From Candidatus Hodarchaeota archaeon (lineage in GTDB: Archaea; Asgardarchaeota; Heimdallarchaeia; Hodarchaeales; YT1-039), in the NCBI GenBank assembly GCA_016840025.1, contig JAEOTF010000446.1:1-28102 (forward strand): a stretch of DNA of 28,102 bases, read 5' to 3'. Below are positions 4,995-28,102 of this stretch, one piece after another (positions within the stretch are counted from its first letter, which is position 1; the number at the start of each line of letters is the position of its first letter). The notes beneath the pieces are model-generated. The model had not been told where the DNA came from, did not search any database, and was given only the letters and a program-made list of their open reading frames with translations. The position numbers and the translations under genes were made by a program.

Positions 4995-4999
4995 ATTTA

Positions 5000-6206
<1,207 letters not shown>

Positions 6207-8567: not shown

Positions 8568-8571
8568 TCAC
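8543..8571 (-). repeat. hairpin directly after the GTPase stop, resembling an IS200/IS605-type subterminal hairpin
   Basis: On the minus strand the sequence runs GTGAACTACTCGCAGG, loop TCAAG, then CCTGTGAGCTTC. The 8-bp stem CTCGCAGG/CCTGTGAG pairs fully with one G-U wobble. The layout 'GTGAACTAC-stem-loop-stem-GCTTC' recalls end hairpins of IS200/IS605-family elements. No tnpA or tnpB lies nearby, so at most this is a remnant. It may act as a 3'-end structure for the GTPase transcript, whose TGA is inside the GTGAAC. Confidence 0.35.
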
Positions 8572-9836
8572 ATTTTTTCAAAATAGTTAGCAACCCAAGG
8601 AAGGAAAGTATCATCTAAAATCTCTTCAATTTGTGCTTGCTTAGGGATTGCGTCCACATGTGACAGGTAGGATAAATAAATTGGTTTTTCATTAATCAGT
8701 GTGGTTGTAATAACATGATATAGCTTTTTTTTGCCGATTTGAATAGGAAACACGCTGGATCTTTCTTGCATCTCTGTAATTTTCAATAATGTCTTCGTAA
8801 AAAGGAAATCTAAGGGTTCATCCTTCAGGTAGTCGACGTTTTTTTCCTGAAAACGTGCTAATTCTAACCCATTATCCGAAACAAGTAGTAATAAATCCGA
8901 ATCCAAAGTTTTGGCGGCTTCTTGCGCACTACCCCGCAAAATATCCTGTACTGGTGAGACAAATTTCAAAGCATCCGAAATCGCCAAAAAAACACTCGAT
9001 TCACGTAATACACTTGTTTGAAATACCATTTCTGTTTTAAGAGAGGGGGTAGGTCTGTCTTTCCAAATGTCTCGCAGAATAAACCGTAATAAGGACGCTT
9101 GATCTTCCATAACTTTCCAATATTTTGAATCCTCAGGTAGTTTGTCGTCAATTTTATGGAATAGGACTGCAAAAGCCGGGTCTAATCCAAGCTTGTATAT
9201 CACTCTAGCTAGTCCTTCGAAATATTTATTAGCCTCCGAATAACGTTTCTCATCTAATATATCCTGTATAAAGATGACAAGGTTCGTTCCATCAAGATAG
9301 TCTTGAGGTGTCTTTAGATACCGTTGACGATAGGCTTCTTGTCCACCCATATCAAATAATATCATAGTTTGCCCCTGTAGAACCATTTCTTGACGTTTTA
9401 CTCCTTTGGTAGGCTTTAACTTCTGAATTTCTTTTAACCTAGTCTCTTTTGGTACTTTGTCTGTGATCCGTTTCATAGTAAGAATTACACTAGTTTTCCC
9501 TGCATTATCCAAACCAACAATCACAATTTTAGGTGTTGTAATCCTACCACTCGTAAGGCTTCTGAGAAGTTCCGTCATCCGTACCCATCGGTCTATCTTG
9601 TTTTCTGATATATTTGTCTTAGTTGCAATTTCTGTGACAGATGATTCACAATTAAAAAGGTCTTGAATCGTCTGTATTCCCATGCTTTCTTTGAGGCCTA
9701 CCTCTTCTTTTTCATTCATCCCTTTAAGAGCGTTAAGCGGCAATTTTAAGATTTTTTCAGGAGTAGGTTTCTCCTCATCAATATCAAAATGGATAAGAGA
9801 CAGTATCTTCAAGAGATGAACTTGTGTTAACAGCAA
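8568..9836 (-). CDS. Rag/Arf-like small GTPase with N-terminal helix-hairpin-like domain and C-terminal roadblock/longin-like region
   Basis: A 422-residue protein. Residues 25-92 resemble a helical HhH/DUF4332-like region (LNALKGMNEKEEVGLKE, GIQTIQDLF, TNISENKIDRW). The GTPase domain starts near 102: G1 GLDNAGKTS at 108-116, G2 candidate PTKG at 142-145, G3 DMGGQE at 162-167, and G4 HKID at 227-230. HKxD is typical of Rag/Gtr GTPases rather than the NKxD of Ras or Arf, while the G1 is Arf-like. Residues 310-422 alternate strands and helices (SDLLLLVSDNGLELARF, FPIQIGKKKLYHVITTTL) in a roadblock/longin-like pattern, as in Rag proteins. The start is TTG at 9836, supported by a strong ribosome binding site. 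It lies 32 bases after the hydrogenase maturation protease, so it is probably cotranscribed. Function inferred only: a switch protein. Confidence 0.8.
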   Translation of the reverse strand: MLLTQVHLLKILSLIHFDIDEEKPTPEKILKLPLNALKGMNEKEEVGLKESMGIQTIQDLFNCESSVTEIATKTNISENKIDRWVRMTELLRSLTSGRITTPKIVIVGLDNAGKTSVILTMKRITDKVPKETRLKEIQKLKPTKGVKRQEMVLQGQTMILFDMGGQEAYRQRYLKTPQDYLDGTNLVIFIQDILDEKRYSEANKYFEGLARVIYKLGLDPAFAVLFHKIDDKLPEDSKYWKVMEDQASLLRFILRDIWKDRPTPSLKTEMVFQTSVLRESSVFLAISDALKFVSPVQDILRGSAQEAAKTLDSDLLLLVSDNGLELARFQEKNVDYLKDEPLDFLFTKTLLKITEMQERSSVFPIQIGKKKLYHVITTTLINEKPIYLSYLSHVDAIPKQAQIEEILDDTFLPWVANYFEKM

Positions 9837-10406: not shown

Positions 10407-12428
10407 TTATTCCGCTGGTTGTTTCAATCTTTCGGCTATAACTTCAACTAAGTCTTTAACTTCAATTTCTGATTGTGTAGATTTCGCTGCGTCTGTGAAC
10501 ATTGATGTACAGAATGGACAAGCTGTTACTAAGACCTTGGACTTTGTAGAGACAGCTTCTTTTACACGGATCTCGGATGGTCGCGCCCCTACTTTTGACT
10601 CTTGAAACATTCCTCCTCCACCACCTCCACAACAAAAGCTATTACTCTTAGTATTTGGCATTTCAACAAGTTTAATACCTGGAATTGCTTCTAAAACCTG
10701 CCGTGCAGTTTCATAATCTTCGTTATATCTTCCAAGATAACACGGATCATGGAAAGTCACTTGAATTTCTTCTTTTCCATTGAATTCAAGTTTTCCTGCC
10801 GCTAATGCATCTGCTAGGACTTTAGTGTAATGAATTATCTCAACATCAGTGTCTAGGTCAGAATATTCATTCAAAAACGTATTATAGCTGTGTGGGGAAA
10901 ACGTAATGATTTTTTTGACACCTGCTTTGTTCATAGCCTTCGTATTATCTGCCATCAATTTTTCAAAGAGGGATATTTCTCCTAGTCGACGAGCTGTATC
11001 TCCATCGTGCTTTTCCTTCTTTCCAAGAATTCCAAAATCTATTTTTAATGCTCTAAGGACATTAACCAATTCTCTAGCTGCCTTCTGATTACGAGGGTCA
11101 TAACAACCAGTGCATCCTACATATAATAGAGTCTTAGATTCCGTCTCCTTTAGCAGAGGGATTTGGAGATCTTCCGCCCACGCAAACCTTAATTTCTTAG
11201 GTTGACCAAATAGATTGCCATTTTTGAAAAGACTCTTCATTGTGTCGATAAGTGTCTCTGGGACGTTGCTTCCTTCTTCTACAAGGTGTGCCCGCATGCC
11301 TGCAACTATATCCATGTGTTGAACCATTGTTGGACATTCTTCTTCACATGCGCGGCATGTTGTGCATGCCCATAATGTTTCTGATGCAATCCCTGGATTA
11401 GTGCTATGTAGATCCATTTTTTCGTGTTTTATGCGGAAAAGGTTTTTGTATACCATTCTATTGAGGTCACGGACTACAAGCATAGGAGAAAGTGGTTCAC
11501 CACTTTCATGAGCGGGACAGGCATTGTTGCATCTATGACATTCTACACAGGCAGATAACTGGATTAACTGCTCAAAAGTAAGGTCTGTATTGTAATGGAT
11601 TCCTCCTTCAGAGTATTTCAAGAGACCTTTAGGACGCTTAGGGTCTAAAAGGAGTATACTTCCAATACTCCCGAACATATGGAATAATTTTGAGTAAGGA
11701 AGATAAGCTAATACCACATATGCAACAAAAATATGTAAAACCCATGCTACTAAGTGAATTTGTTCTAGTAACTCTGAATCGATACCTTCAAAAATTGCGG
11801 CTAACGGGGTACCAATAATAGACCAGTCCTCATAGGCGGGATTAGTAGCGGCAATCCGAACAATTTCAATTAAGAAGCCAGATAGACCTAAGAAAAGCAA
11901 ACCAACTAAAATGACTCCATCCATAAGGTCTTCATGTTCGAATGAACCACGCCATAAAACATAACGTCGAAAAATCGCCATTACAGTCCCAATCACCAGT
12001 AATAGCCCTGAAATATCTGTAAAGAAAACAAAGATATCATAAAGCTCATCATAGATGAAAGGATAGATATCTCCATGAATGGCATGTAGGGTGGTACCGA
12101 TTCCTAGCCCTATTATCCCCAGTAGAATCAACCAATGCATGAGAAGTGAGTAAGCTCCCTTTCTGCTGATCCTAGATCCTAACAACAGTTTAATCTCTTT
12201 CGGTCGAAACATATTTCTAAGTGCTCGTTTTATCATTCCAAAAAAGGAAAGTTCTCTTTTTCCACTGAACCATACTCTCAATAGTTGAATAGTTCCAAAT
12301 ATTACAATTAACGCTGTAATCGCAGCACCTAGGTACATTAACAGTTCAATTTCATGGGGGACATTGTAAAAGAGTTCTCTAGCTTCGCCATTATTATTCG
12401 TAGTAGAGTAAAGATGAGTGGGACTCAT
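10407..12428 (-). CDS. etfD: membrane EtfD-like protein: cytochrome b (NarI-like) + 2[4Fe-4S] + CCG domains
   Basis: Predicted ETF-oxidising membrane protein that passes electrons to a quinone-type carrier. The ATG at 12428 gives 673 residues; GTG at 12437 is possible. The N-terminal 250 residues hold about five membrane helices with heme-ligand candidates H98, H115, H225 and H232. Next comes a ferredoxin-like region: C294/297/300/304 and C355/358/361/365. The C-terminal half is HdrD/GlpC-like with two CCG repeats. The second is complete (C563, C599-C600, C637, C640). The first is broken: the usual CC is H474-D475 and the CxxC is SPHS (511-514). Six to 15 bases separate it from etfA. Family knowledge: EtfD/EMO proteins link acyl-CoA dehydrogenase-derived electrons to the membrane. 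The alternative, a heterodisulfide reductase HdrDE fusion, is less likely beside etfBA. Confidence 0.88.
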   Translation of the reverse strand: MSPTHLYSTTNNNGEARELFYNVPHEIELLMYLGAAITALIVIFGTIQLLRVWFSGKRELSFFGMIKRALRNMFRPKEIKLLLGSRISRKGAYSLLMHWLILLGIIGLGIGTTLHAIHGDIYPFIYDELYDIFVFFTDISGLLLVIGTVMAIFRRYVLWRGSFEHEDLMDGVILVGLLFLGLSGFLIEIVRIAATNPAYEDWSIIGTPLAAIFEGIDSELLEQIHLVAWVLHIFVAYVVLAYLPYSKLFHMFGSIGSILLLDPKRPKGLLKYSEGGIHYNTDLTFEQLIQLSACVECHRCNNACPAHESGEPLSPMLVVRDLNRMVYKNLFRIKHEKMDLHSTNPGIASETLWACTTCRACEEECPTMVQHMDIVAGMRAHLVEEGSNVPETLIDTMKSLFKNGNLFGQPKKLRFAWAEDLQIPLLKETESKTLLYVGCTGCYDPRNQKAARELVNVLRALKIDFGILGKKEKHDGDTARRLGEISLFEKLMADNTKAMNKAGVKKIITFSPHSYNTFLNEYSDLDTDVEIIHYTKVLADALAAGKLEFNGKEEIQVTFHDPCYLGRYNEDYETARQVLEAIPGIKLVEMPNTKSNSFCCGGGGGGMFQESKVGARPSEIRVKEAVSTKSKVLVTACPFCTSMFTDAAKSTQSEIEVKDLVEVIAERLKQPAE

Positions 12429-12443
12429 TATGTTCACAAAACC

Positions 12444-13412
12444 CTATAGACGCTTTAGAAATTCGGGGATAACTTCTACTAAATCACCCACAATTCCATA
12501 GTGCGCTACTTTCCAGATCGGCGCCTCCTCGTCCGTATTAATGGCAATAATAGTTTTAGAGTTCTTCATACCAAAGACATGTTGTATTGCACCAGAAATT
12601 CCTGCACTGATGAATAAATCAGGAGTTACAATCTTACCTGTTTGACCGATTTCATGGTCGTACGGAACCATCTCTAGGTCAATTGCTAGTCGTGTAGCCC
12701 CGACTTCAGCTATAGGAGAACCACCTAATTTATCACGAAGCTGCCAGATTAAGTCATAATTTTCCTTAGTACCGACGCCCAAGCCTCCCGCAACAATGAT
12801 TTTTGCTTTTGAGATATCAACAGTGGCTTCTACAAAGGTCTCATCTATAAATTCCTCTCGGTCGTCGGTCATATCGGACACAGTCATTTTCTCAATGGCG
12901 GCGGAATGGGACGAATCAGGTTCCGCAGCAGCAATGCTTCCACGTAAAAGAGTCGCTATTGTGACAGCACGCGTTGGAATTATCTCATTAAATATCATAT
13001 CCTCATAAGTTGGGATTAGTACTTTGAAGGATCCATTATTTGATTCAAATTTTGTACAACCGCTTAAAATACTTGCTTTAGTCCGAATAGCCACTCGAGG
13101 AAGAATTTCTGACATGGTAAGAGTAGCACATGAAAGAACAAGCTTAGGATTGACCTGATTAACTACTGTACTGAGTGCGGTCGTATAAGAAAGCACATTC
13201 ACATCGCCTAGTAAAGGATCATCAACCACATATACTTTATTTGGACCATATTGCCCTACTGTATTCGCAAGATTTTCTAAGTCTCTCCCTAGGATAACTG
13301 CATTGAATTCCCATTGAAGATCGCTAGCGAGGGCTTTAGCAACTGCAAATGCTTCTTTAGTACCATCTAAAAGTTCATCTTTTCTGTATTCAACAATTAC
13401 TAGGATACTCAT
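12444..13412 (-). CDS. etfA: electron transfer flavoprotein alpha subunit
   Basis: Binds FAD and, with EtfB, carries electrons between dehydrogenases and the EtfD-like protein. 322 residues. The C-terminal FAD domain is canonical: GQTGKIVTPDLFISAGISGA at 256-275, then IQHVFGM, TIIAINTDEEAPIW near 287-300 and AHYGIVGDLVEVIP. The Arg contacting the flavin (R241 in GATRLAID) is present at the normal spacing before GQTGK. The upstream GGRG motif reads GGLGVG (209-214), a small departure. ATG at 13412 overlaps the etfB stop by four bases, with GGAGGAG upstream, indicating coupled translation. The N-terminal domain is degenerate, as usual. Confidence 0.95.
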   Translation of the reverse strand: MSILVIVEYRKDELLDGTKEAFAVAKALASDLQWEFNAVILGRDLENLANTVGQYGPNKVYVVDDPLLGDVNVLSYTTALSTVVNQVNPKLVLSCATLTMSEILPRVAIRTKASILSGCTKFESNNGSFKVLIPTYEDMIFNEIIPTRAVTIATLLRGSIAAAEPDSSHSAAIEKMTVSDMTDDREEFIDETFVEATVDISKAKIIVAGGLGVGTKENYDLIWQLRDKLGGSPIAEVGATRLAIDLEMVPYDHEIGQTGKIVTPDLFISAGISGAIQHVFGMKNSKTIIAINTDEEAPIWKVAHYGIVGDLVEVIPEFLKRL

Positions 13413-14191
13413 TTGCCAATCTCCTCCAGGTTTATGCCATCCTGCTTTAATCGTTCGAACAATTCCTCAACAGCCCCTGTTCCTTCAAATATTACACATT
13501 CGGGTCGTTCTGGGGGTGCACTTGTCTCTAAAACCTTGATAGTGGACTCAAGATCATCGACATCAATATCGTCTAATTCCATGCTAGGGACGGGGTTTTT
13601 CCGTGCCTTCATGATTCGACCAACACTAATATAACGGGGCTTATTAGCAGTGTTAGCAACAGAAAGAACTGCTGGTAAGGATAATCGGACTGATCGATAT
13701 CCTCCTTCAATTGTTTTATCTATTTTAACTCGATTCTCCTCAAATTCAAACTTTTCCGCATAGCTAGCATGAGGTAATTCTAGGAACTCTGCAAGCATTG
13801 CAGGAACTGCTCCAGAACCTAAGTCAAATGACGTCATTCCACAAAAAATAAGGTCAGGGATTCCTTTTTCTTTAATTGCCGCACTTAATATCTCCGCAAT
13901 TATAATTTCATCCCTAGTTTCCAAGTCCTCAGTTTTTATTAGGAGTGTTTCATCGGCACCCATTGCCATAGCTTCTTGGAGGACATGTGTGGCTTCTTCA
14001 CATGTAACACTAATTGCAGTTATGTGTTCAACCTGACTAGCTTCTTTTAGAGCGATTGCAGCTTCGAGTGCATGATAATCATATTGATTTATCACTATTT
14101 CATCATCATCGAATTCTGATAGCTCTAATTCATCGGGTTCAATATCTGCATTTCGATCAAGTACCGGTTTAATTAAAACAAAGATTTTCAT
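13409..14191 (-). CDS. etfB: electron transfer flavoprotein beta subunit
   Basis: Partner of EtfA; it holds AMP or a second FAD, depending on subtype. 260 residues from ATG 14191. The sequence starts KIFVLIKPVLD, as in the family, then INQYDYHALEAAIALKE, AMAMGADETLLI, IFCGMTSFDLGSGAVPAMLAE and GRIMKARKNPVP. An ATG at 14206 would add five residues, but GAGGTG at 14199-14204, seven bases before 14191, decides for the shorter form. It follows mvhA by 59 bases, so it may share the hydrogenase transcript or have a weak own promoter. Whether this ETF bifurcates cannot be told from motifs by eye. Confidence 0.93.
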   Translation of the reverse strand: MKIFVLIKPVLDRNADIEPDELELSEFDDDEIVINQYDYHALEAAIALKEASQVEHITAISVTCEEATHVLQEAMAMGADETLLIKTEDLETRDEIIIAEILSAAIKEKGIPDLIFCGMTSFDLGSGAVPAMLAEFLELPHASYAEKFEFEENRVKIDKTIEGGYRSVRLSLPAVLSVANTANKPRYISVGRIMKARKNPVPSMELDDIDVDDLESTIKVLETSAPPERPECVIFEGTGAVEELFERLKQDGINLEEIGK

Positions 14192-14250
14192 ACCTTTCCA
14201 CCTCATTTACTCAATGAAATAGGAAAAAAAAGGGTCAAACTATATTACAT

Positions 14251-15726
14251 TTATTTTCGTCTTTGTATATATTGACTACCTCGCCATACTTCTTTACCTT
14301 GGGAGTCCTTTACTATGACTTCCAATGGCATCTGACCTGGTAGTGAGTGAGTTGCACAGGCAAAACAGGGGTCATAGGCACGAAATGCCATTTCTACCAT
14401 GTTGAGCATGCCTTGGTCAACTTCAGGACCTTTCACTACTTTTTCAGCGGCTTTCTTAATAGATAAGCATATTGCAGCATGATTATGAACAGTCGCTACA
14501 ATAAGGTTTACCCCATTCTTTTTAAGCACACCTCGTTCGTCTGTTTTGTAATGATGGATTAGTGTTCCTCGTGGAGCTTCAACAATACCTACTCCTTCAT
14601 CTGGGGTGTCTAACTTAGCACGGAGATTCTGACTCATGATGTCGGGATCATTGATAAGTTCTAATGCTCTTTCTGCTGCGTTCATCTGCTCAATAACCCG
14701 TGCCCAGTGCATTGCAAGAGTGTGATGAGCAGGTTTGCCTAAAGTCTCCATCATAGCCTTATATTCTTCATTAGCAACGGGTGTTGACATTCCATCAGCG
14801 ACATTCAGACGCCCCAACGGTGCAACCCGATATACTCCTGAGTCTGCTCCATCTTTAAGACCGTTCCAACCTTTTTCCTTAAGGTAGGTGAACTTTAGAT
14901 AACTCATTTCAGAAGGGATTTCTACAATGTGATCTAAGTAATCTTCTTGGGGGAACTTAGTGATCTCATTACCTTCTACATCTACTACACGAACCATGCC
15001 GCGATAGAAGTTTGGATGATTATTTTCGTCAACTAGTCCCATATAATGCGTTTTATGGTAATAAGCATCCCCTAAAATGATATTTTTATAGGTTTCATTG
15101 GCAAGGACGATGTCGTGGAAGATCTTGAGTGTAAATTTACTGAAATCAACAAGAACTTCTGCCATCTTTTTGATTTCTTCTCGTTCTTCCTCTTTCAAGG
15201 ATCGTGCCCAACCGCCAGGAATACCTGCAGCGGGGGCCCTTCCTGATCCTGCTAAAATCCCTTGAATCTTTTGTGCATATGATCGAGCAGTAATTACCTG
15301 TTTTCCGATATCAAGTCCAACTTTTTCTACTACTCCAAGTATATTACGTTTTGCAGGAGGAGCATCAGGTCCAACTACAAAATCAGGACCCGCAAGGGCA
15401 TAAAAATGAGCTATGTGTGAGTGTAACATATGTCCGCAATAGAAAAGTTCTCTAATCTTGTGGGCTGCTAGCGGTGGATCCGCATTGAAGACTCCATCCA
15501 TTGCTTTTGTTGAGGCTAAATGATGTGCTGAGGGGCATACTCCGCAAATTTTCATGGTAATCCTAGGCATATCTTCTACAGGTCGCCCCTCGCAAAATCG
15601 TTCAAATCCTCGCAATTCTGGAACTTGGAAGTAAGTGTTTGCAACCTGTCCATCATCATTTAGAAAGATGGTAATTTTTCCATGACCTTCTAAACGTGTA
15701 ATAGGATCTATTTCAATTTTCTTCAT
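14251..15726 (-). CDS. mvhA: [NiFe] hydrogenase large subunit, group 3c (MvhA-like)
   Basis: Catalytic subunit for reversible H2 oxidation, cytoplasmic. 491 residues. Signatures: DPITRLEGHGKI at 7-18, KICGVCPSAHHLAS with nickel ligands C61 and C64, and DPCFACATH with C454, C457 and H460. A 31-residue tail after H460 should be removed by the maturation protease encoded downstream. Length and partner genes (mvhG, mvhD, hdr) point to group 3c; a formal classification needs a tree. ATG 15726 with AAGGTAG upstream, six bases after mvhG. No hyp maturation genes occur in the window, so they must lie elsewhere. Confidence 0.93.
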   Translation of the reverse strand: MKKIEIDPITRLEGHGKITIFLNDDGQVANTYFQVPELRGFERFCEGRPVEDMPRITMKICGVCPSAHHLASTKAMDGVFNADPPLAAHKIRELFYCGHMLHSHIAHFYALAGPDFVVGPDAPPAKRNILGVVEKVGLDIGKQVITARSYAQKIQGILAGSGRAPAAGIPGGWARSLKEEEREEIKKMAEVLVDFSKFTLKIFHDIVLANETYKNIILGDAYYHKTHYMGLVDENNHPNFYRGMVRVVDVEGNEITKFPQEDYLDHIVEIPSEMSYLKFTYLKEKGWNGLKDGADSGVYRVAPLGRLNVADGMSTPVANEEYKAMMETLGKPAHHTLAMHWARVIEQMNAAERALELINDPDIMSQNLRAKLDTPDEGVGIVEAPRGTLIHHYKTDERGVLKKNGVNLIVATVHNHAAICLSIKKAAEKVVKGPEVDQGMLNMVEMAFRAYDPCFACATHSLPGQMPLEVIVKDSQGKEVWRGSQYIQRRK

Positions 15727-15732
15727 TTCTAT

Positions 15733-16692
15733 CTACCTTTTATGCTTTAAAATTGAACTCCCTAAACTAAATTGGTAAAAAACACCACCAAGATCAGGTA
15801 GTTGACTCATAATCTTTTCAAACTCTTCAGGGTCTTCAGTATCAACAATTGATCCTAATACTGATATCATTTTTGCACCTTGGTCACGAACATCTGGAGG
15901 AGGACCAGAACAACCTCTACAAGGCATATTTGCATCAAGGCATGCTGCTTGGCATACAGCAACTGTTGCTGGACCACAACATAAAACTCCTTGTTCAAGG
16001 AAGCAACGATTAGGATCGAGATCTGTGACTTCCCAAATTCGTTTGAATTCATGGATTTTCTTCTCCTCTGTTCGTTCTCGTGGACATTTTTCGCATACTG
16101 TAGTACCATCAGTAATCATAGTTCCTTTCGGAGGAAGATTTCCTGATTTAATAGCTCCAACAGCTGTCATAATCAGGTCTGGGTGGGGAGGACACCCTGG
16201 AAGGTAATAATCCACATCTACTACATGATCTAAAGGAAGAACTTGGTCATATATCTCTGGAAGAGTCACTTCTCCTTCTGGTACCTTAACTTTTCGTTGA
16301 GGGATGATCTTGTCAGGATTAGGGGTACTAACTGATGATATATACGCACGATCGAAGACCTCTTCACTATTAGCGAAGTTAGCTAAGGATGGCGCTCCGC
16401 CATGACATGCGCAGGTTCCAAAAGCGATCATAACCTTGGATTTTGCTCTTAAGAGTTTCGCAACGTGTGCTAGTTCTGAATTTCGACATGATCCATTGTA
16501 TAAACAAACATCTATTGTTTTGTCAGGCAGTGCCTCTATGTCAGAAAATTTTCCATCTACAGCGACAGGCCACAATAGAATGTCAGCTAGTGCTGCAATT
16601 TCAAGAATACCTGCATCTGTATCTAGTACCGCGATTTCACAGCCACCGCAGGAGCCTCCCCAAAATAGTGCAAATTTTAACTTTTCACTCAT
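15733..16692 (-). CDS. mvhG: [NiFe] hydrogenase small subunit (MvhG-like)
   Basis: Carries the FeS relay from the NiFe site toward MvhD/HdrA. 319 residues from ATG 16692. Motifs: FWGGSCGGCE at 10-19 (proximal cluster C15, C18), GTCACHGGAPSL, YLPGCPPHPD, and a Cys-rich C-terminal part (CEKCPRERTEE, CFLEQGVLCCGPA, CQAACLDANMPCRGCSGPPP) for further clusters. There is no Tat signal, so it is cytoplasmic. An ATG at 16722 would add ten residues, but GAGGTG at 16702-16707 with a nine-base spacer favours 16692. It overlaps the end of mvhD by eight bases. Confidence 0.92.
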   Translation of the reverse strand: MSEKLKFALFWGGSCGGCEIAVLDTDAGILEIAALADILLWPVAVDGKFSDIEALPDKTIDVCLYNGSCRNSELAHVAKLLRAKSKVMIAFGTCACHGGAPSLANFANSEEVFDRAYISSVSTPNPDKIIPQRKVKVPEGEVTLPEIYDQVLPLDHVVDVDYYLPGCPPHPDLIMTAVGAIKSGNLPPKGTMITDGTTVCEKCPRERTEEKKIHEFKRIWEVTDLDPNRCFLEQGVLCCGPATVAVCQAACLDANMPCRGCSGPPPDVRDQGAKMISVLGSIVDTEDPEEFEKIMSQLPDLGGVFYQFSLGSSILKHKR

Positions 16693-17134
16693 TAGCCCAA
16701 TCACCTCTCTTTTTGTATCCATTCCATTGTAATGGTCCCAAAGCCTTGACTTGATCTGTAAAATCGGTAACTACATTAGCAAATTTTTTAGCTTCACCTG
16801 CAGAAATCAATTCTATCCTTAGACGCTCCGATTCGATTCCGAAGTCCTTTAAAGTAGCTTTCATTAGTGCCATTCGTTTTGCTGCATTATAATTCCCCTC
16901 TTGATAGTGACAATCCCCAAAATGGCACCCACCAACGAGTACACCATCTGCTCCTTCTTCGAATGCAGTTAATACAAAAGTTGGGTCAATACGCCCTGTA
17001 CACGGCACTCGAATTGCTGTTACAGTTTGAGGCATTTTCAATCGGCTAACGCCTGCTAAGTCTGCTCCAGCGAGGGTACACCACTTACAGAATAGTCCTA
17101 CAATTGTAGGTTGAAAATCAGTTTCTGAGCTCAT
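16685..17134 (-). CDS. mvhD: MvhD-type [2Fe-2S] subunit linking hydrogenase to HdrA
   Basis: Small electron-transfer subunit that in methanogen Mvh-Hdr complexes bridges the hydrogenase and HdrA. 149 residues. Conserved cysteines: FCKWC (C16, C19), PCTGRIDP (C45) and GGCHFGDCHYQEGN (C70, C75). ATG 17134 overlaps the upstream stop (ATGA) and is preceded by a perfect AGGAGGTG at 17140-17147, the strongest ribosome binding site I see here. Its presence between the HdrA C-half fusion and mvhG supports a physical hydrogenase-HdrA junction. Confidence 0.93.
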   Translation of the reverse strand: MSSETDFQPTIVGLFCKWCTLAGADLAGVSRLKMPQTVTAIRVPCTGRIDPTFVLTAFEEGADGVLVGGCHFGDCHYQEGNYNAAKRMALMKATLKDFGIESERLRIELISAGEAKKFANVVTDFTDQVKALGPLQWNGYKKRGDWANE

Positions 17135-18936
17135 TTTCGCACCTCCTGTAATATCTCCTGCAATAAAGCCCCTCTTATTTCTGCAAGAATCGCTTCATCT
17201 GAATAATACTTCTGACTTATAGCGCTGGAAGGACATACACTGACGCATATTCCACATCCATGACATTTCTCTTCTGTTATTACTGATGCATTCTTTTCCT
17301 CGTCAAAATTAATTGCGGTGTATGGACATAAACTGATGCAGGTCTTACACGCCGAACACTTTGTGTCATCCACAGTAGAGGTAATAGGTTCTACAACAAA
17401 TCCACTATGGATCAAAGCAAGTGCTCCTCCAGCTGCAGCTCCTCCTTGTGCCACAGAATCAGGAATATCCTTTGGTCCTTGGCATGCTCCAGCTAAGAAA
17501 ACTCCATCAACCATTGCATTTACTGGTGCCATTTTTGGGTGTCGTTCTTGAAAGAACCCTGCAGTAGTACATCCTACGCCAAATAAATTGCCAACCTCTC
17601 TACTATCTGGCTTAGCTACTAAGGCAGGGCTGAGAACTAACATATCTAATAGTATTTTAAGAGTCTTTCCAAGTAAACTATCATTCACTTTTATTGTGAT
17701 CTGTTCATCACTTGTACCTGCTTTATCGACGTCTACATCCACTACTTTTCCCCTAATGAAGATTACATCTTCTTCTAATAACCGCATATAGAACTCTTCG
17801 TAGCCTTTTCCAAAAGTCCTCATGTCTATATAGAAATTTATTACATTTGAATCTGGGAGTCGTTCCTTCACTAAGTGAGCAAACTTCAGCGAATACATAC
17901 AACACACACGAGAACAATACTCATTGTGATTTTTGTCTCTTGATCCAACGCAGTGTACAATCCCAACAGTTTTGGGTTGTTTATCGGTAAAAGCACCTTG
18001 ACTTCGGAGATTAATATTCCCACCTGTTGGACCGCTTGCATTAAGAATACGTTCGAACTCTATAGCTGAATAAATATTTTCAGACATTCCATAAGCGTAG
18101 TTTTCAACCTTACGAACGTCATAATTATCTATACCAGTTGCTAAAATAATAGCACCAACATTAAGCTCAATGTTCTCATCTTCTTGGGTATATTTAATGG
18201 CTTTTGCTTCGCAAACTTCTTCACAAACCTTACAACCACCGGTAATGAAATGCATGCAGCTTTCTCGGTCGATTACAGGTATTTTTGGGACTGCTTGGGG
18301 AAAGGGCGTATAAATAGCGGTTCTTGAAATTAATCCCTCATCAAACTCAGATGGAATAGGAATAGGTTTACTTTCAGAAACTTCTTCTAATTTCGGTCCT
18401 CTTACTCCTGCAGGACATATATAGACGCAGGCGCCACAGGCACGACAAGTTGCTGAATAAGTATCAAAAGGCGGTTTTATCTCTCTGTTTATCCCTCTAT
18501 TAACAAAATCTATTGCTCCAATACCCATTCGTTCGTGGCAAATCCGTACACACAAACCACAAAGTGTACAATCTTCATTCTTTTTCTCAAGTCTAGTATC
18601 TGTTACTCCCAAACTATTGGCTATTTTTATTACTTCCTCTGAATCGGGGCAACGCGCTAGATGTAACTCTGCCATCATTTTACGTCCTTTTACAACCCTT
18701 TCGGAGTGCGTTTGGACATTAATACCTTCTTGCACCTTATATTGACAAGAAGCCTGAAGGGTGGTTCTACCATTGTTCTCAATCTCTACCACACACAATC
18801 GACAAGCACCATAAGGGCTGAGTGTGGGATGATAGCAAAGTGTTGGGATATCAATACCAATGGATTGTGCTGCTTCTAGTATTGTTTTCCCTTCTTCTAC
18901 TCCAACTTCTTGACCATTAATAATTAATCTTACCAT
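17131..18936 (-). CDS. fusion: NuoG/HydA-type N-terminal FeS domains + C-terminal half of HdrA
   Basis: A 601-residue chimera. Residues 1-80 form a [2Fe-2S] ferredoxin (C34, C45, C48, C64). Residues 120-180 hold two [4Fe-4S] motifs (C123/126/129/133 and C164/167/170/174), as in NuoG or HydA. The usual His-Cys3 cluster of NuoG is absent: HLARCPDSEE has only one Cys. From about 190 the protein is HdrA: SEFDEGLISRTAIYTPFPQA, the second inserted-ferredoxin motif (C227, C235, C238, C242), GAIILATGID, the HdrA cluster CVGSRD..YCSRVCC (C329, C341, C345, C346), FYIDMRTFGKGYEEFY, GVFLAGACQGPKDIPDSVAQ and a C-terminal 2[4Fe-4S] ferredoxin (C527-537, C558-568). The HdrA N-half with the FAD dinucleotide motif is absent here and encoded at 20834-22111. 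ATG follows the nuoF stop directly. Confidence 0.9.
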   Translation of the reverse strand: MVRLIINGQEVGVEEGKTILEAAQSIGIDIPTLCYHPTLSPYGACRLCVVEIENNGRTTLQASCQYKVQEGINVQTHSERVVKGRKMMAELHLARCPDSEEVIKIANSLGVTDTRLEKKNEDCTLCGLCVRICHERMGIGAIDFVNRGINREIKPPFDTYSATCRACGACVYICPAGVRGPKLEEVSESKPIPIPSEFDEGLISRTAIYTPFPQAVPKIPVIDRESCMHFITGGCKVCEEVCEAKAIKYTQEDENIELNVGAIILATGIDNYDVRKVENYAYGMSENIYSAIEFERILNASGPTGGNINLRSQGAFTDKQPKTVGIVHCVGSRDKNHNEYCSRVCCMYSLKFAHLVKERLPDSNVINFYIDMRTFGKGYEEFYMRLLEEDVIFIRGKVVDVDVDKAGTSDEQITIKVNDSLLGKTLKILLDMLVLSPALVAKPDSREVGNLFGVGCTTAGFFQERHPKMAPVNAMVDGVFLAGACQGPKDIPDSVAQGGAAAGGALALIHSGFVVEPITSTVDDTKCSACKTCISLCPYTAINFDEEKNASVITEEKCHGCGICVSVCPSSAISQKYYSDEAILAEIRGALLQEILQEVRK

Positions 18937-20841
18937 TTAGCTTACACCACTCTTTACATCAATAGCTTCAAACCTACAACTATCTAAGCATACCCCGCAC
19001 TTTTCACATAGATCACTATTGATCTGATGGAGTTTATCTTTCTCTCCTGTGATTGCATTAACAGGGCAAAGTTTTAAGCATCTGCCGCATCCAGTGCATT
19101 TCTCATTTATTTCAAATTGGATTAATGCTTTGCAAACTTTTGCTGGGCATTCCTTCCTTTCTATATGCGCGCTGTACTCATCTCGAAAATACCTGAGAGT
19201 AGTTAATACTGGATTTGGAGCTGTTGTTCCAAGACCACACATTGAGAAATCTATAATTGTCTGTCCTAAATCTTCTAAATACTGAAGATCACTAGGGTCG
19301 CCCTTACCCTCTGTTATTCTTTCTAATATCTGATAAGACGCATCTAATCCCTCACGACAGGAGGTACATTTACCACATGATTCATCACGGGTGAAATCGA
19401 TGAAAAATTTGGCCAAATCTACTATGCATGTATCTTCATCAACAACAATCATACCACCTGAACCCATGATAGAACCTGCTGTGGTTAAACTTTCATAATC
19501 AACTGGCAAGTCAATGGATCCTTCGGGAAGGCAACCACCAGATGGTCCACCGGTTTGTACCGCTTTAAATTTCTTATCTTCTAGGATTCCACCACCGACA
19601 TCATAAACGATTTCACGTAATTTGATGCCCATGGGCACTTCAACGAGACCAGTATAGTTGATTTTACCCACTAATGAGAATACTTTTGTACCTTTACTTT
19701 TCTCGGTTCCTAAAGAAGAATACCAATCACCACCCCTGCTAATTATTGGTGCTACATTTGCCCATGTTTCTACGTTATTGATGTTTGTTGGTTTCCCCCA
19801 TAAACCGCTTTGAGAAGGAAATGGTGGTCTGAGTATTGGTTCAACCGCTTTCCCTTCGATTGATCCTATCAAGGCAGTTTCTTCTCCACAAACAAAAGCC
19901 CCAGCACCTCGAATCAAGGTAATATTGAAATCAAATCCAGAATTTAGTATATTATCCCCCAGTAGTCCATGATCTTTGGCTTGTTGAATTGCTTTCTTTA
20001 GTCTTTCAATAGCAATAGGGTATTCGACACGAACATAGATATACCCCTCGTTAGCACCTATGGCATATCCACCGATTATCATTCCTTCAATAACTGAGTG
20101 GGGATCTCCTTCAAGTATACTACGATCCATGTAGGCACCTGGATCCCCTTCATCAGCATTACAGATAATGTATTTCGTTGGAGCATCCTGTTTTGCTGTA
20201 AGTTCCCATTTAAGTCCAGTTGGAAATCCAGCGCCTCCACGCCCCCGTAATCCTGCTTTCTTAATTGTTTCAATAACCTCTTTGGGTTTCATTTTATTCA
20301 GTGCTTTATATACTGGACCATAGCCACCACGTGCAATATACTCTTCAATACTACTCGGGTCAATGAAACCGCAATTTCTTAAGGCAATTTTCATTTGTTT
20401 AGCAAAAAATGGGTACTCTTCGTAAAGTAGTATTTCACTTAGCCGGTCATTTTTTCCTAAAGCATGCCGTGTGTCACTTACGATATATTCCTCGTCTTCC
20501 ATTTTCCATAGAATCGTTTCTTTTTTCATATCTCCCGAAGCTATGGCTTTAACTAGTTCCCTCGCCGTTTCTCCAGTTAAATTCCCATAGAATAATTTGG
20601 GCTGACCAGGCTTATGGAAATAAATAGTTGGTTCTTTTTGACAAAGACCAACACAACCTGTTTCCGTGACAACCCAGTCCAGTTTTTGTTTTTCTACTTC
20701 GTCTTTTATCACTTCATAGACCGTCGCAGCACCCGCTGCTAAACCACATGAAGCCATACCGACAGCAATTTTAGGATTATCTGGATAGAGTGACGCTAGG
20801 CCTTTATCTTTTAAATTTTCGATATCCGTTGCTTTACTCAT
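18937..20841 (-). CDS. NuoF/HydB-type NAD(P)H-FMN subunit with extra ferredoxin domain
   Basis: NAD(P)H-oxidising or NAD(P)+-reducing flavoprotein. 634 residues. N-terminal thioredoxin-like [2Fe-2S] domain with C32, C63 and C67 (ASCGLAAGA, TGCVGLC). FMN/NADH core: GLRGRGGAGFPTGLKW near 198, CNADEGDPGAYMDR near 228 and GAGAFVCGEETALIGSIEG near 312. Cluster: SCGKCTSCREG (C489, C492, C495) plus C535. C-terminal 2[4Fe-4S] ferredoxin: C582/585/588/592 and C612/615/618/622. This is the HydB-like architecture of bifurcating dehydrogenases and hydrogenases. ATG 20841 overlaps the upstream gene by eight bases and the next ATG follows its stop directly. It sits between the two genes that carry the halves of HdrA. 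Confidence 0.93.
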   Translation of the reverse strand: MSKATDIENLKDKGLASLYPDNPKIAVGMASCGLAAGAATVYEVIKDEVEKQKLDWVVTETGCVGLCQKEPTIYFHKPGQPKLFYGNLTGETARELVKAIASGDMKKETILWKMEDEEYIVSDTRHALGKNDRLSEILLYEEYPFFAKQMKIALRNCGFIDPSSIEEYIARGGYGPVYKALNKMKPKEVIETIKKAGLRGRGGAGFPTGLKWELTAKQDAPTKYIICNADEGDPGAYMDRSILEGDPHSVIEGMIIGGYAIGANEGYIYVRVEYPIAIERLKKAIQQAKDHGLLGDNILNSGFDFNITLIRGAGAFVCGEETALIGSIEGKAVEPILRPPFPSQSGLWGKPTNINNVETWANVAPIISRGGDWYSSLGTEKSKGTKVFSLVGKINYTGLVEVPMGIKLREIVYDVGGGILEDKKFKAVQTGGPSGGCLPEGSIDLPVDYESLTTAGSIMGSGGMIVVDEDTCIVDLAKFFIDFTRDESCGKCTSCREGLDASYQILERITEGKGDPSDLQYLEDLGQTIIDFSMCGLGTTAPNPVLTTLRYFRDEYSAHIERKECPAKVCKALIQFEINEKCTGCGRCLKLCPVNAITGEKDKLHQINSDLCEKCGVCLDSCRFEAIDVKSGVS

Positions 20842-22111
20842 ATCTCTTCAACACCTTTGGTATTCTATTAGGTCGTATATTTCCAAAAGCTTCACCATCA
20901 ACTGTTATCACGGGAGCTAGACTACAGCAACCAAGGCAACGCACAGGTACTAATGTAAACCTTTGATCTTCAGTAGTTTCACCCACTTCTACTTTTAACT
21001 CACTCTTTATTCGTTCCAATAATCTTGGGGCACCCCTAACGTGGCAAGTAGTTCCCAAACAGACATTAATAAGATGATCTCCTCTTGGCTTCAAGCTAAA
21101 GGCGTTATAAAATGTAGCCATTCGGTATACTGTACTTAAAGGGAAATCTAATTCAACAGCCACATGCTTTAGATGTTCACTTGGAAGATACTTGAATTCA
21201 TCATTAATATCCTGAAGGACAGGCATTACAGCTCCTGGTTTCCCCTTATGTCTGCTAATTATTTCATTAACAACAGGTAATTCTTCCTTTTTTATATCTA
21301 TTGCCATTTTAGGCAATTCAGTAGAAGGTTTATATTGCACTGGACAGTTATCCCAACAATCTCCGCAACCAGTGCACAACGACTCATCAACTGATTTTGC
21401 TTTCTTTTTTATTTTTACTTGATAATTCCCCACAACCCCCTCAACACCAGCGACTTCGGCATAGCTGAGCAACTCAATGTTTGGATGTCGGGCAACTTCC
21501 ACCATTTTCGGTGTCAAAATGCACGCTGAACAATCTAATGTGGGGAATGTTTTATCAAATTGAGCCATGCGTCCTCCAATCGAAGGAGTTCTCTCTAAAA
21601 GGTACACCTTAGAACCTGCACTTGCTGCCTGTAAACTAGCTTCCATACCCGCGATACCTCCACCGACAACAAGTATATTAGAATTTACATCAATTTTTTC
21701 TTCTTCGAGAGGACTGTGTTTATGCACTCGAGCAACAGCTGCCGCTACTACTTGTTTGGCCTTTTTCAGAGCGGAATCTTGATCAGGAGCAATCCAGCTA
21801 GCCCCTTCACGAATATTTCCCATCTGAAACATGTAAGGATTAAGTCCCGCTTCTTCTGTGGCAATTCTAAAGGTTTTCTCATGGAGGGTATAAGCGCATG
21901 AACATACAACAACTCGCTGTAGGTTATGCTCTTTAACAGTCTCTCTGATATTTGTTTGTCCAACTTCAGAGCAGGTATATTTGTTATCTTTAACAACCCT
22001 GACTCCTTTTAGTCCTTTGGTGAACTCTAGCAATTTTCCCATATCGATTGATCCTGCAATATTTGTGCCACAATGACATAGAAAAACTCCAATATCGGGT
22101 TCTACGCTCAT
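20834..22111 (-). CDS. fusion: N-terminal half of HdrA + NuoE-type [2Fe-2S] domain
   Basis: 425 residues from ATG 22111. Residues 1-259 are the N-half of HdrA: GVFLCHCGTNIAGSID (C12, C14), VVCSCAYTLHEKTF, the FAD motif VVGGGIAGMEA (G150-G152), IGGRMAQFDKTFPTLDCSAC (C194, C197), ILTPKMVEVARHPN, and the first inserted-ferredoxin cluster CTGCGDCWDNCPVQ (C246, C249, C252, C256). HdrA then stops; a normal HdrA would continue with the second cluster and the rest of the FAD fold. Residues 275-422 are NuoE/HydC: YLPSEHLKHVAVEL, STVYRMATFYNAFSLKPRG, and ligands C351, C356, C392 and C396. The GTG at 22120 overlaps the upstream stop, but the ribosome binding site favours the ATG. The missing HdrA part is encoded at 17131-18936. 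Confidence 0.9.
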   Translation of the reverse strand: MSVEPDIGVFLCHCGTNIAGSIDMGKLLEFTKGLKGVRVVKDNKYTCSEVGQTNIRETVKEHNLQRVVVCSCAYTLHEKTFRIATEEAGLNPYMFQMGNIREGASWIAPDQDSALKKAKQVVAAAVARVHKHSPLEEEKIDVNSNILVVGGGIAGMEASLQAASAGSKVYLLERTPSIGGRMAQFDKTFPTLDCSACILTPKMVEVARHPNIELLSYAEVAGVEGVVGNYQVKIKKKAKSVDESLCTGCGDCWDNCPVQYKPSTELPKMAIDIKKEELPVVNEIISRHKGKPGAVMPVLQDINDEFKYLPSEHLKHVAVELDFPLSTVYRMATFYNAFSLKPRGDHLINVCLGTTCHVRGAPRLLERIKSELKVEVGETTEDQRFTLVPVRCLGCCSLAPVITVDGEAFGNIRPNRIPKVLKRYE

Positions 22112-22116
22112 ATTGA

Positions 22117-23268
22117 TCACTCCTTAATAGCATCTGCTACCAATTCTGCTATTTCTTTCACCTGTATTGTGTCGCTCATTCCCAACAATTTTATTGCATC
22201 TTCAAACATCAACACACAGTAATAACAAGCTGTTGCAAGTGTATTGGCTTCAGTTCCTGCTGCTTCCTTAGTTCTAGTAAGAGAGAACCGATATTCTGGT
22301 TTTGTTTCTCGCCACACTCCTCCACCTCCTCCACCACAACAAAGACTCCGCTGGCGATTGTGAGGCATTTCTACTAACTCGAGGTTAGGAATAGCACACA
22401 AAATTTCCCTTGGTATTTCTGTGATACCACTATGATTAGCTAAATAACACGGGTCATGGAAAGTAACTTTAGATTTTTCATTATTGTAAAACTTAAGACG
22501 CTTCTCTCGGATTAAACGAGCCAAAAACTCAGTATAATGTAAAACCTCAATATTAGAAGGCAGGTCATAGGTAGTCTGTTTGATATAAGAGGAATGAGGG
22601 CTGGTGGTAACAATTGTAGAAACGCCTGCTTCAAGAATTGCTTTCACATTTTTCTCTTTATTCATCTCAGCTAGATCTGTTTCTCCTACAAAACGAGTAC
22701 AACAGCCGCAATCCGTTTCATTCTTCCCTAGAATTCCAAAATCAACTTCAGCCGCAGTAAAAATCTTTGTGAGAGCTTCTGCGATTTTTTGGCCACGGGG
22801 ATCATAAGAGGCAGTACACCCTACAAAATACAGTATTTCTGCTGATTCTTCAGGCAGGATTTTAATATTTAGTCCTCGTTCTTCAGCCCATTGGACACGA
22901 TTCTTTCGTTTTGCATTCCACGGGTTACCTTGACGTAATAATGATACTAAAGTTGCGGTTATCTCTTCAGGCACTCCCCTACCATCATCAATAGCTATCC
23001 TTCGAATCCCCATCATGATGTCAGCAATCTTCACATCATGAGGACAAAGAAGGTGACATCGGCCACAGGTCGTACATAGCCAAGTTTCCTCTTTTTGTAT
23101 GTCCCAGACCCCTAATTGCCCATGATGGATTATAGAACGTGGATCAAATTCTCGAAAGTCGTTCCAAGGACATACGCCTGAGCAAGAAGAACATTGATAG
23201 CAAAGACGAAGATTCTGTTGAGAAAGTTCAGATAAATTCCTACGTAGATCAAAATCTACATTTAACAT
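22117..23268 (-). CDS. HdrC-HdrB fusion (HdrD-like) with degenerate first CCG repeat
   Basis: First gene of the redox operon. 383 residues from ATG 23268; GTG at 23280 is possible. The N-terminal HdrC part carries two [4Fe-4S] motifs, C23/26/29/33 and C65/68/71/75. The C-terminal HdrB part has two CCG repeats. The second is complete: DPC at 274, CCGGGGGG at 310-311, and C348/C351. The first keeps C150 and C189-C190 (in DCGCC), but the usual CxxC is SPHS (223-226). In HdrB both repeats hold noncubane clusters that cleave CoM-S-S-CoB. With one damaged and no methanogenesis gene in sight, the substrate may differ. Its stop overlaps the next gene's alternative GTG. It resembles the CCG part of the EtfD-like protein but has no membrane domain. 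Confidence 0.9.
   Translation of the reverse strand: MLNVDFDLRRNLSELSQQNLRLCYQCSSCSGVCPWNDFREFDPRSIIHHGQLGVWDIQKEETWLCTTCGRCHLLCPHDVKIADIMMGIRRIAIDDGRGVPEEITATLVSLLRQGNPWNAKRKNRVQWAEERGLNIKILPEESAEILYFVGCTASYDPRGQKIAEALTKIFTAAEVDFGILGKNETDCGCCTRFVGETDLAEMNKEKNVKAILEAGVSTIVTTSPHSSYIKQTTYDLPSNIEVLHYTEFLARLIREKRLKFYNNEKSKVTFHDPCYLANHSGITEIPREILCAIPNLELVEMPHNRQRSLCCGGGGGGVWRETKPEYRFSLTRTKEAAGTEANTLATACYYCVLMFEDAIKLLGMSDTIQVKEIAELVADAIKE
22120..22124 (-). promoter_or_regulatory. Shine-Dalgarno with embedded upstream stop, deciding the HdrA-NuoE start
   Basis: Minus strand reads AGGAG, then TGATCAAT, then ATG (22111). The TGA of the HdrC-HdrB gene forms the first three spacer bases. This placement makes the overlapping GTG at 22120 unlikely and suggests translational coupling. 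Confidence 0.6.
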
Positions 23269-23287
23269 TTGTTTTTGCACTTCCGAT

Positions 23288-27323: not shown

Positions 27324-28102
27324 ATGGTGAAGATTGTTGTTGCGAGTACACGCAGAAATGCTGGTAAGACTAGTATTATAATTGGCTTAGCAAAAGCACT
27401 TGGTAAAAAAGTTGGGTACATGAAACCCTTTGGTGATAGACAGGTGTATCAAAAGAAACGCCTATGGGACTCTGATGCTGCTTTGATAACAAATATTTTT
27501 GGATTAGAATATACTCCAGAGGATATGACACTCGGTTTTGACCACTCAAAATTACGATACATCTATGATGATGAAACAGCACTTGCTAATAAACTTATTG
27601 AAATAGTAAAGAGCAGTAGTAAAGATAAGTCCGTCCTTTTTGTTGAAGGGGGCAATGATCTAGCATACGGTCTTTCAGTTTCTCTTGATCCATTAACAGT
27701 GGCAAGAACTCTTAGTGCAAAATTGTTGATTGTAGTATCTGGTAATCCTGATAAGATCTATGATGATCTTGTTTTCGTTAAGGATTATGTTATGCAGAAA
27801 GATATTGATCTTGCAGGGGTTATTATTAACAAAATTCGCGATTTAGCCGACTTTAAAGAAAATTATCTGGATAATATTAAGAAACTCGGCGTTAATGTCT
27901 TGGGCATCATTCCTTATCAACCTGAGCTCACGTATGTCTCGGTTGATTATATCTACCAGAAAATATTTGCTAAAATCATTGCTGGTGACCGTGGACTTGA
28001 CAAAATTGTCAAAAACATCTTTGTTGGGGCCATGTCTGCTAATATGGCAATTAGAAGACATGGCCCCAACAAAGATGTTTTTGACAATTTTGTCAAGTCC
28101 AC
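27324..28102 (+). CDS. BioD-like P-loop + DRTGG-domain protein (Pta N-terminal-like), truncated by window end
   Basis: The frame opens at ATG 27324, 18 bases after acd, and runs off the window (259 codons). The N-terminus VKIVVASTRRNAGKTSIIIG is a P-loop of the dethiobiotin synthetase/cobyrinate synthase type. YMKPFGDR, FVEGGNDLAYG, ARTLSAKLLIVVSG and GVIINKIRD follow the fold seen before the catalytic domain of some phosphotransacetylases. Near residue 238 GAMSANMAI matches the beginning of a DRTGG domain. The last ~15 codons (from 28056) are the reverse complement of 27991-28037 and are probably not genuine. Stand-alone proteins of this type may sense acetyl-CoA metabolism; the link with acd fits this. 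It is not a full Pta as far as visible. Confidence 0.7.
   Translation, partial: MVKIVVASTRRNAGKTSIIIGLAKALGKKVGYMKPFGDRQVYQKKRLWDSDAALITNIFGLEYTPEDMTLGFDHSKLRYIYDDETALANKLIEIVKSSSKDKSVLFVEGGNDLAYGLSVSLDPLTVARTLSAKLLIVVSGNPDKIYDDLVFVKDYVMQKDIDLAGVIINKIRDLADFKENYLDNIKKLGVNVLGIIPYQPELTYVSVDYIYQKIFAKIIAGDRGLDKIVKNIFVGAMSANMAIRRHGPNKDVFDNFVKS
27991..28102. repeat. perfect 47-bp inverted repeat at the window end, probable assembly or amplification artefact
   Basis: Bases 27991-28037 and 28056-28102 are exact reverse complements, separated by 18 bases (28038-28055). The second arm ends on the last base of the window. It lies inside the coding frame of the BioD/DRTGG gene and turns the frame into its own antisense. 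Such fold-backs at contig ends are common artefacts of multiple displacement amplification or assembly. Confidence 0.9.

Follow-up and report, generated by a model that had tools for sequence, protein, structure and literature searches.

The 28,102-nucleotide stretch of a Candidatus Hodarchaeota archaeon genome analyzed here (henceforth the window) encodes a heterodisulfide reductase subunit A (HdrA) that is divided between two open reading frames (ORFs), with domains of the NuoE, NuoF and NuoG type standing between the two pieces and fused in frame to each of them. By its sequence, the insert looks like a Bfu (HydCBA-type) bifurcation core, in which NuoE, NuoF and NuoG correspond to BfuC, BfuB and BfuA, so that the layout combines two known bifurcating families, HdrA and Bfu. 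We read the locus as an hdrA cut by a complete BfuC-BfuB-BfuA module, whose products likely form one complex with the HdrA FAD and two [4Fe-4S] clusters held by two chains; for this reading as a whole we regard the balance as even. Related loci and proteins are cited below by our L and P identifiers.

The division of HdrA is apparent from comparison with solved structures. Residues 7-263 of HdrA-N::NuoE align to residues 3-260, and residues 187-590 of NuoG::HdrA-C to residues 253-649, of the 654-residue HdrA in PDB 5odc (chain A), and the E-values of the halves against solved HdrA sequences range from 4e-72 to 3e-107. Joined, the halves thus give an almost complete HdrA with nothing lost, as the initial annotation had claimed. 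The same partition emerges with the NCBI HdrA2 model NF040770, which includes MvhD: its positions 2-258 correspond to residues 10-264 of HdrA-N::NuoE, positions 247-641 to residues 184-591 of NuoG::HdrA-C, and positions 643-774 are matched by a separate MvhD gene; neither half (342 and 431 bits) reaches the model's cut-off of 1100 bits. The FAD/TrxR fold, the N-terminal FeS domain and the inserted and C-terminal ferredoxin domains are all present by sequence, and the window keeps the FAD, C197-type and ferredoxin motifs; what departs from HdrA is their distribution over two ORFs instead of a single polypeptide. The N half ends in CTGCGDCWDNCPVQ, and the C half restarts at PIPIPSEFDEGL, once NuoG has run through its last [4Fe-4S] motif. 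At this point, the sequence of solved HdrA chains is PIEVPNEFDLGL or PIEMPNYFDEGI, which places the cut directly behind the first of the two motifs of the inserted ferredoxin domain, the second (CMHFITGGCKVCEEVC) being carried by the other protein. Either cluster of a double-cluster ferredoxin is bound by three cysteines of one motif and one of the other. Thus, both clusters, along with the FAD, would be held jointly by the two chains, in line with the earlier proposal that FAD would be bound across two polypeptides. Chance or miscalled genes are ruled out as the source of this pattern by the matches to the HdrA model and structures together with the same domain pairs in relatives.

The three ORFs of the set lie on the minus strand where the initial annotation had placed them, and its domain assignments are borne out: HdrA up to the first cluster motif is followed by NuoE (matches to NF040770 and PF01257), NuoG-like FeS domains are followed by the resumption of HdrA (Fer2_4 and NF040770), and both junctions of the E-F-G module with hdrA are in frame. 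The NuoE domain (PF01257, 160 bits) spans residues 284-427 of HdrA-N::NuoE, Fer2_4 (PF13510) spans residues 1-78 of NuoG::HdrA-C, which also matches Fer4, and the ORF between them matches PF01512, PF10531, PF10589 and PF00037, with its SLBB match lying under the curated cut-off (21.5 of 27 bits). We take these Pfam domains to be the counterparts of the InterPro domains of BfuB, BfuC and BfuA, and through them the window has the defining domains of all three subunits. In the accessible text of the study delineating the family, the Bfu core is defined by set domains, namely IPR011538, IPR019554, IPR019575 and IPR017896 in BfuB, IPR002023 in BfuC, and IPR001041 with IPR017896 in BfuA (PMC9304861). 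The same text reports a histidine of the B2 cluster that is missing in 8 of 1558 sequences and is absent from non-bifurcating homologues (PMC9304861); it is present in the window BfuB (EYSAHIERKECPAKVC), and the B2 His/Cys pattern recurs in 13 of the 14 loci checked. The C-terminal ferredoxin motifs of BfuB were found in 12 of these 14 loci and the pattern for the B5 [2Fe-2S] cluster of its N-terminal thioredoxin-like domain in none (0/14); that domain aligns to 9bov_B with three common cysteines. The titles of the structures giving the best solved matches of NuoE (7t2r) and NuoF (9bov) name bifurcating enzymes, and the window BfuA matches, over residues 3-178, chain A of 9mqx, which by its structure title is the BfuA of an electron-bifurcating tungsten aldehyde oxidoreductase. 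A plain complex I N-module is ruled out by the marks of BfuB, i.e., the extra ferredoxin domain and the B2-cluster His/Cys. The initial description of the insert as an NAD(P)H-dehydrogenase module therefore holds for its NuoE-NuoF-NuoG order, while its type is BfuB/HydB-like.

The split gene stands in a run with the minus-strand order HdrC/HdrB-like, HdrA-N::NuoE, NuoF, NuoG::HdrA-C, MvhD, MvhG and MvhA (Table 1), in which neighboring ORFs overlap by 4-38 bases, abut, or are spaced by 6, as in an operon. The hydrogenase bears the marks of the Group 3c [NiFe] hydrogenase MvhADG in the form of the NiFe-binding CxxC pairs (KICGVC and DPCFAC) and MvhD; the window's match to NF041785, at 400 bits, is under that model's cut-off of 800. 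The L1 motif KICGVC of MvhA is replaced by RICGVC in 7 of the 8 other loci showing the motif and by SICGVC in L128. As read from the sequence, the HdrC/HdrB-like protein lacks the last CxxC of its first CCG stretch; as a single CCG motif is left intact, the protein need not act on the heterodisulfide of coenzymes M and B (CoM-S-S-CoB).

Table 1. Features of the split hdrA locus and its neighbors (positions in the 28,102-nt window, contig JAEOTF010000446.1, forward-strand numbering)
Feature	Position	Strand	Basis or remark
HdrC/HdrB-like protein, likely high-potential arm	22117..23280	-	two 4Fe-4S motifs, one intact CCG motif
HdrA-N::NuoE (BfuC) fusion, 425 aa from ATG	20834..22111	-	ORF 20834-22120, ATG at 22111
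HdrA N half	21323..22111	-	N-terminal FeS domain, FAD Rossmann motif, C197-type cysteine, first inserted-domain motif
First cluster motif CTGCGDCWDNC	21344..21376	-	HdrA cut just behind
NuoE/BfuC domain	20840..21271	-	best solved match 7t2r_C, subunit C of a NiFe hydrogenase
NuoF/BfuB	18937..20841	-	FMN/NAD domain, NADH_4Fe-4S, B2 His/Cys, C-terminal double [4Fe-4S] domain
NuoG-N (BfuA)::HdrA-C fusion, 601 aa	17131..18936	-	ORF and domain matches
BfuA domain	18403..18936	-	one [2Fe-2S] and two [4Fe-4S] motifs, like 9mqx chain A
HdrA C half, starting SEFDEGL	17164..18351	-	alignment to solved HdrA
Second cluster motif of inserted ferredoxin domain, CMHFITGGCKVCEEVC	18211..18258	-	sequence motif
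MvhD (FlpD)	16685..17134	-	domain matches
MvhG-like small hydrogenase subunit	15733..16722	-	domain matches; true start may be second Met
MvhA-like [NiFe] hydrogenase large subunit	14251..15726	-	KICGVC and DPCFAC motifs
EtfB, EtfA, NarI/Fer4/CCG membrane protein	10407-14206	-	directly downstream

The layout is not confined to the window: it is met again in Asgard archaea and in metagenome-assembled genomes belonging to several phyla. Of about 8000 sequences scored per query in the largest protein collection searched, the best 120 were considered; HdrA-N is joined to NuoE in 120/120 of these best matches to the N-half protein, and NuoG to HdrA-C in 118/120 of those to the C-half protein, the other two being single-chain HdrA proteins with NuoG (P0184 and P0198). 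Among the best matches listed for the N-half protein, the nearest that bear a name are labelled Asgard and Heimdallarchaeaceae (P0005 and P0007), which, together with a small GTPase encoded in the window (see below), makes an Asgard origin probable. Genome samples searched at E<=1e-90 (1e-95 for the phylum of L014), which yield thresholded counts rather than full censuses, gave positives in 4 of 392 genomes from the phylum of L001 (Sedimentisphaerales; all with the full fusion), 4 of 132 from that of L002 (Zixibacteria; one fused, three with stand-alone HdrA-N), 3 of 301 from that of L014 (Dehalococcoidia; all with stand-alone HdrA-N), and 5 of 19 from that of L009 (bacterium UBA9088; one full, four short); among 50 further genomes, one was positive at E<=1e-140. 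Searches of two archaeal phyla with P0134, scoring at most 8 and 11 candidates per genome, listed NuoG-to-HdrA matches at E<=1e-100 in 0/151 and 0/115 genomes.

We read 21 loci for HdrA halves; a 22nd (L136) is without an HdrA half. Both halves are present in 15 of the 21, always in the order N half, NuoE, NuoF, NuoG::HdrA-C, and L173 is a further paired case; the co-occurrence by which the initial annotation proposed to check its reading is thus observed. NuoF adjoins the C half in 11 of the 15 paired loci, and hdrA is cut at the same place in the loci read. In L009, L073, L125, L131 and L135, the contig ends 0 to 1.9 kb past the last gene of the set. In 12 of the 15 paired loci, MvhD is the gene next to the C half, while in L127, L130 and L134 the contig stops there; MvhG and MvhA follow in 10 of the 12 MvhD loci; L129 ends there, and L132 has neither in the 7.7 kb available. 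Three arrangements can be distinguished. In type I (7 loci: the window, L001, L002 and L129-L132), HdrA-N is fused to NuoE. In type II (8 loci: L014, L073 and L121-L126), HdrA-N is a stand-alone gene that ends soon past the motif, with NuoE next, and NuoG::HdrA-C is still fused where the sequence covers it. Type III (6 loci: L009, L127, L128 and L133-L135, plus L173) has a short HdrA without the N-terminal domain fused to NuoE, and a second HdrA that is fused on in L128 and L133, begun in L127 and following in L173; here the first unit of a tandem HdrA is the split one. Accordingly, in-frame fusion at both junctions describes the window, whereas the first junction is unfused in type II, and no separate complete hdrA is found on the 21 loci, whereas the short class has an intact second HdrA (L128, L133 and L173). 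In these same three loci, the C197 region is present in the short split HdrA and absent from the second HdrA, a complementarity that, in the accessible part of the source, is described for tandem HdrA (PMC9012536). Because of this complementarity, the split HdrA and the second HdrA of type III likely make a working heterodimer. Variant domain contents are also seen. The BfuB of L126 (positions 5033-8245, minus strand) carries a C-terminal GltD/NfnB-type domain that replaces the double [4Fe-4S] domain; a long NuoF also occurs in L125, L127 and L136, the domain scan having covered L126. A single-chain HdrA carrying NuoG alone, followed by MvhD, lies at positions 1-2452 of L137, and the same genome has the type III split locus L173.

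As to the history of the layout, the split halves in a tree of HdrA-C from 103 rows are spread over many branches among unsplit HdrA, forcing at least 9 changes at Shimodaira-Hasegawa-like approximate likelihood ratio test (SH-aLRT) support >=95. In an approximately unbiased (AU) test on a set of 51 rows, a single clade of the 20 split HdrA-C rows was rejected (599 log-likelihood units worse; p-AU 7e-48). These were quick trees with some long branches, including that of the window, and the short class, the tandem units and L130 were left out of both. With one clade rejected, several hdrA lineages must either have taken up the module or have come to supply its flanks later; of the earlier picture of an insertion into hdrA, the split itself is seen in the window, while a single recent event does not agree with the layout being shared by several phyla and with HdrA-C halves that do not form one clade. 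At both junctions, the module and its flanks contrast in identity. The NuoG-N of the window, P0134 and P0172 group at 97 (with P0151 at 98), and those of P0134 and P0172 are 74% and 72% identical to that of the window, whereas their HdrA-C is only 47% identical; one clade for the HdrA-C of this trio, which was named after the trees had been seen, is rejected (p-AU 2.5e-4). Likewise, the NuoE of P0004 and the window are 74% identical and their HdrA-N 57%. So one module has come to be combined with different HdrA flanks, through repeated insertion or flank exchange. That the split arose once, with later recombination swapping the HdrA flanks or re-joining hdrA, as opposed to many insertions, appears plausible to us at somewhat below an even chance. 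The discordance between NuoG-N and HdrA-C in the above trio speaks for it, as do the 58% identity of the P0134 HdrA-C to an ordinary archaeal HdrA (L160), as against 47% to that of the window, and the common place of the cut; the interleaving of split with unsplit HdrA-C, the rejected 20-row clade and the class that splits the first unit of a tandem HdrA tell against simple single descent, not against flank exchange. Single-chain HdrA proteins with NuoG alone (P0184 and P0198 being the only ones among the 120 rows listed, and L137 a third) give mixed signals as to an ancestor of this form for the split: the HdrA-C of P0198 falls among ordinary HdrA, but that of P0184 groups with the split P0187 and the GltD-inserted L003 at 100. 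Complementary truncation of two unrelated hdrA paralogues is not favored, as the N and C halves of L001, L002, L132 and L126 share their closest ordinary or GltD-inserted HdrA relatives; this verdict rests on those four loci, rank agreement being low in the window and others. Within loci, the two halves co-vary, with r=0.93 for the 10 loci left once 5 short or partial ones had been set aside, a value inflated by related loci.

The mechanism that we propose is that the HdrA fold re-forms between HdrA-N::BfuC and BfuA::HdrA-C, so that the two proteins grip one another and hold BfuB between them. Electrons from H2 would pass from MvhADG via MvhD to the HdrA FAD, and Bfu would be wired to HdrA's low-potential exit, which is what the inserted ferredoxin domain is reported to be in the excerpts consulted. 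The earlier suggestion that FMN/NAD(P)H chemistry is placed at the bifurcation site needs to be amended, as the module is at this exit and not at the FAD itself. With Bfu set into the exit, two bifurcation sites working in series would be the simplest inference, as proposed for Bam-Bfu. In the organism of the window, where EtfAB, a membrane FeS protein like an electron transfer flavoprotein (ETF):quinone oxidoreductase and an acetyl-CoA hydrolase/transferase-like gene are nearby, the reverse direction seems likelier, in which electrons of NADH, ferredoxin and a higher-potential donor would be confurcated to form H2. More generally, HdrA probably has a recurrent plug-in site in its inserted ferredoxin domain. 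That Bfu modules were set into several bacterial and archaeal hdrA genes, with the FAD and two [4Fe-4S] clusters built in trans and two bifurcation sites in series joined to a hydrogenase, we put forward tentatively, as somewhat less probable than the reading of the window itself.

Several observations weigh against this scheme. Other sequence of 0.7-3.0 kb separates NuoF from the C half in 4 of the 15 paired loci (L001, L128, L132 and L133), and L135 shows no C half in the 1.9 kb from NuoF to the contig end. L014 has none after NuoF or, at E<=1e-60, elsewhere in the genome, and is an exception to the pairing of the halves, with a masked gap at that place. The E356 pattern is found in 8 of 15 C halves and the K409 pattern in 10 of 15, the FAD pattern in 16 of 21 N halves, and the N-terminal CxCG pattern in 11 of 15 full-length N halves; some of these absences may be genuine. 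The structure model of the single-chain relative P0198, with its inserted NuoG, has a mean predicted local distance difference test score (pLDDT) of 70 and falls below 50 at residues 176-198, 246-288, 414-463 and 487-516, and that of the window C half is weak at 139-156 and 189-218. When ordinary HdrA relatives are ranked by either half of a paired locus, the two rankings agree with rho from -0.38, the value of the window, to 0.69 over the 15 loci, against a median of 0.83 for ordinary HdrA. Finally, the GltD-type domain on the BfuB of L126 means that ferredoxin exchange at that place cannot be universal.

This last point also bears on the view that there is but a single bifurcation, with NuoEF only supplying or taking NADH electrons via BfuA to the HdrA FAD, as is thought for Flx or MetVF partners, and the Bfu core not bifurcating. 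Some members would indeed be without ferredoxin exchange at BfuB, and HdrA with an inserted NfnB/GltD domain (L007 and L012), as treated in the accessible part of PMC9012536, offers a single-chain version near the same place; yet the conservation of the B2 His/Cys noted above, with a histidine that the accessible text of PMC9304861 gives as absent from non-bifurcating homologues, makes this unlikely in our view, if well worth keeping in mind. We regard as improbable that the HdrA pieces are relics serving as a wire or scaffold devoid of an FAD site, with only the Bfu core and the hydrogenase at work: none of these loci has its HdrA undivided, the models are of low confidence at the junctions and some residue patterns are missed in relatives, but the window retains the FAD, C197-type and ferredoxin motifs, and the halves co-vary and are paired in most loci. 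An assembly or gene-calling artefact, which the largely metagenomic data and the masked gap in L014 might bring to mind, is practically negligible in view of the same order in 15 of 21 loci and the same domain pairs in 238 of the 240 proteins listed.

The scheme with two bifurcation sites in one complex can be placed against several known systems. With the Bfu family (Schut et al. 2022, PMC9304861), the window shares the domains of BfuB, BfuC and BfuA and the B2 histidine, and its BfuA resembles that of the tungsten enzyme 9mqx, giving it a Type 2 look. However, the accessible text of that study describes no BfuC with an extra domain and no BfuA with half an HdrA, the words "fused" and "fusion" being absent from its main text. 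Bam-Bfu, in the same source, has in common with the window an HdrA-type module, BfuABC (BamGHI) and two proposed serial bifurcations, but there HdrA and Bfu are described as separate parts, unlike the fusions seen here; no Pfam match to tungsten BamB or BamC was found among the 20 of 25 ORFs scanned in the window, which is only 28 kb long. In HdrA9-11 or type III HdrA, known in the excerpts consulted from ANME-1 and Bathyarchaeota (PMC9012536, PMC12054007), a pyridine-nucleotide module, NfnB or GltD, likewise interrupts the inserted ferredoxin domain. In that case, one domain enters one chain, whereas in the window three genes enter, the insert is of the Bfu type and hdrA is divided, so that the window does not belong to type III HdrA; an identical position is also ruled out, as the NfnB/GltD insert in L007 and L012 starts about 30 residues further on than the split point. 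MvhADG-HdrABC (5odc, 8rvu) has the same subunits, with MvhD, MvhG and MvhA after HdrA and the same electron entry, but its HdrA is one chain and passes its low-potential electrons to free ferredoxin. No description of the split-HdrA layout was found in the accessible portions of the literature searched (PMC11237513, PMC5736913, PMC7325909, PMC9012536, PMC9304861, PMC11406978, PMC12054007, PMC11291895, PMC7015854, PMC6305446, PMC10689502, PMC9723677 and PMC7886697), and it may have been noticed earlier elsewhere.

Downstream of MvhA, the window encodes EtfB, EtfA, the NarI/Fer4/CCG membrane protein and a hydrogenase maturation protease. The first three resemble an ETF:quinone oxidoreductase set, and the CCG part of the membrane protein is 39% identical to the HdrD-like subunit. 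Elsewhere on the minus strand, an Arf/Rag-like small GTPase domain, the main indication within the window of an Asgard archaeon, is encoded at 8568-9836, and two adjoining genes at 4578-5464, close to DHBP_synthase- and RibD_C-like genes, both match lumazine synthase (DMRL_synthase), the second more weakly (57 bits). The extreme end of the window (27991-28102) forms a 53-base inverted repeat, 98% complementary with a 6-base gap, which is probably an assembly end artefact.

In source records, the fusions go by names such as NADH-quinone oxidoreductase subunit NuoE, FAD-dependent oxidoreductase, heterodisulfide reductase subunit A or (2Fe-2S)-binding protein; hence, the complex is easily missed by reconstructions that seek a complete hdrA. 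If our reading is true, the locus would physically unite two of the four bifurcating families that the accessible text of PMC9304861 lists, its flavin site being put together from two chains, and the direct passage of low-potential electrons from HdrA to a second bifurcating core would become testable. Among the carriers of the layout are Asgard archaea, whose balance of H2, NADH and ferredoxin has a key place in hypotheses about syntrophy and eukaryotic origins.

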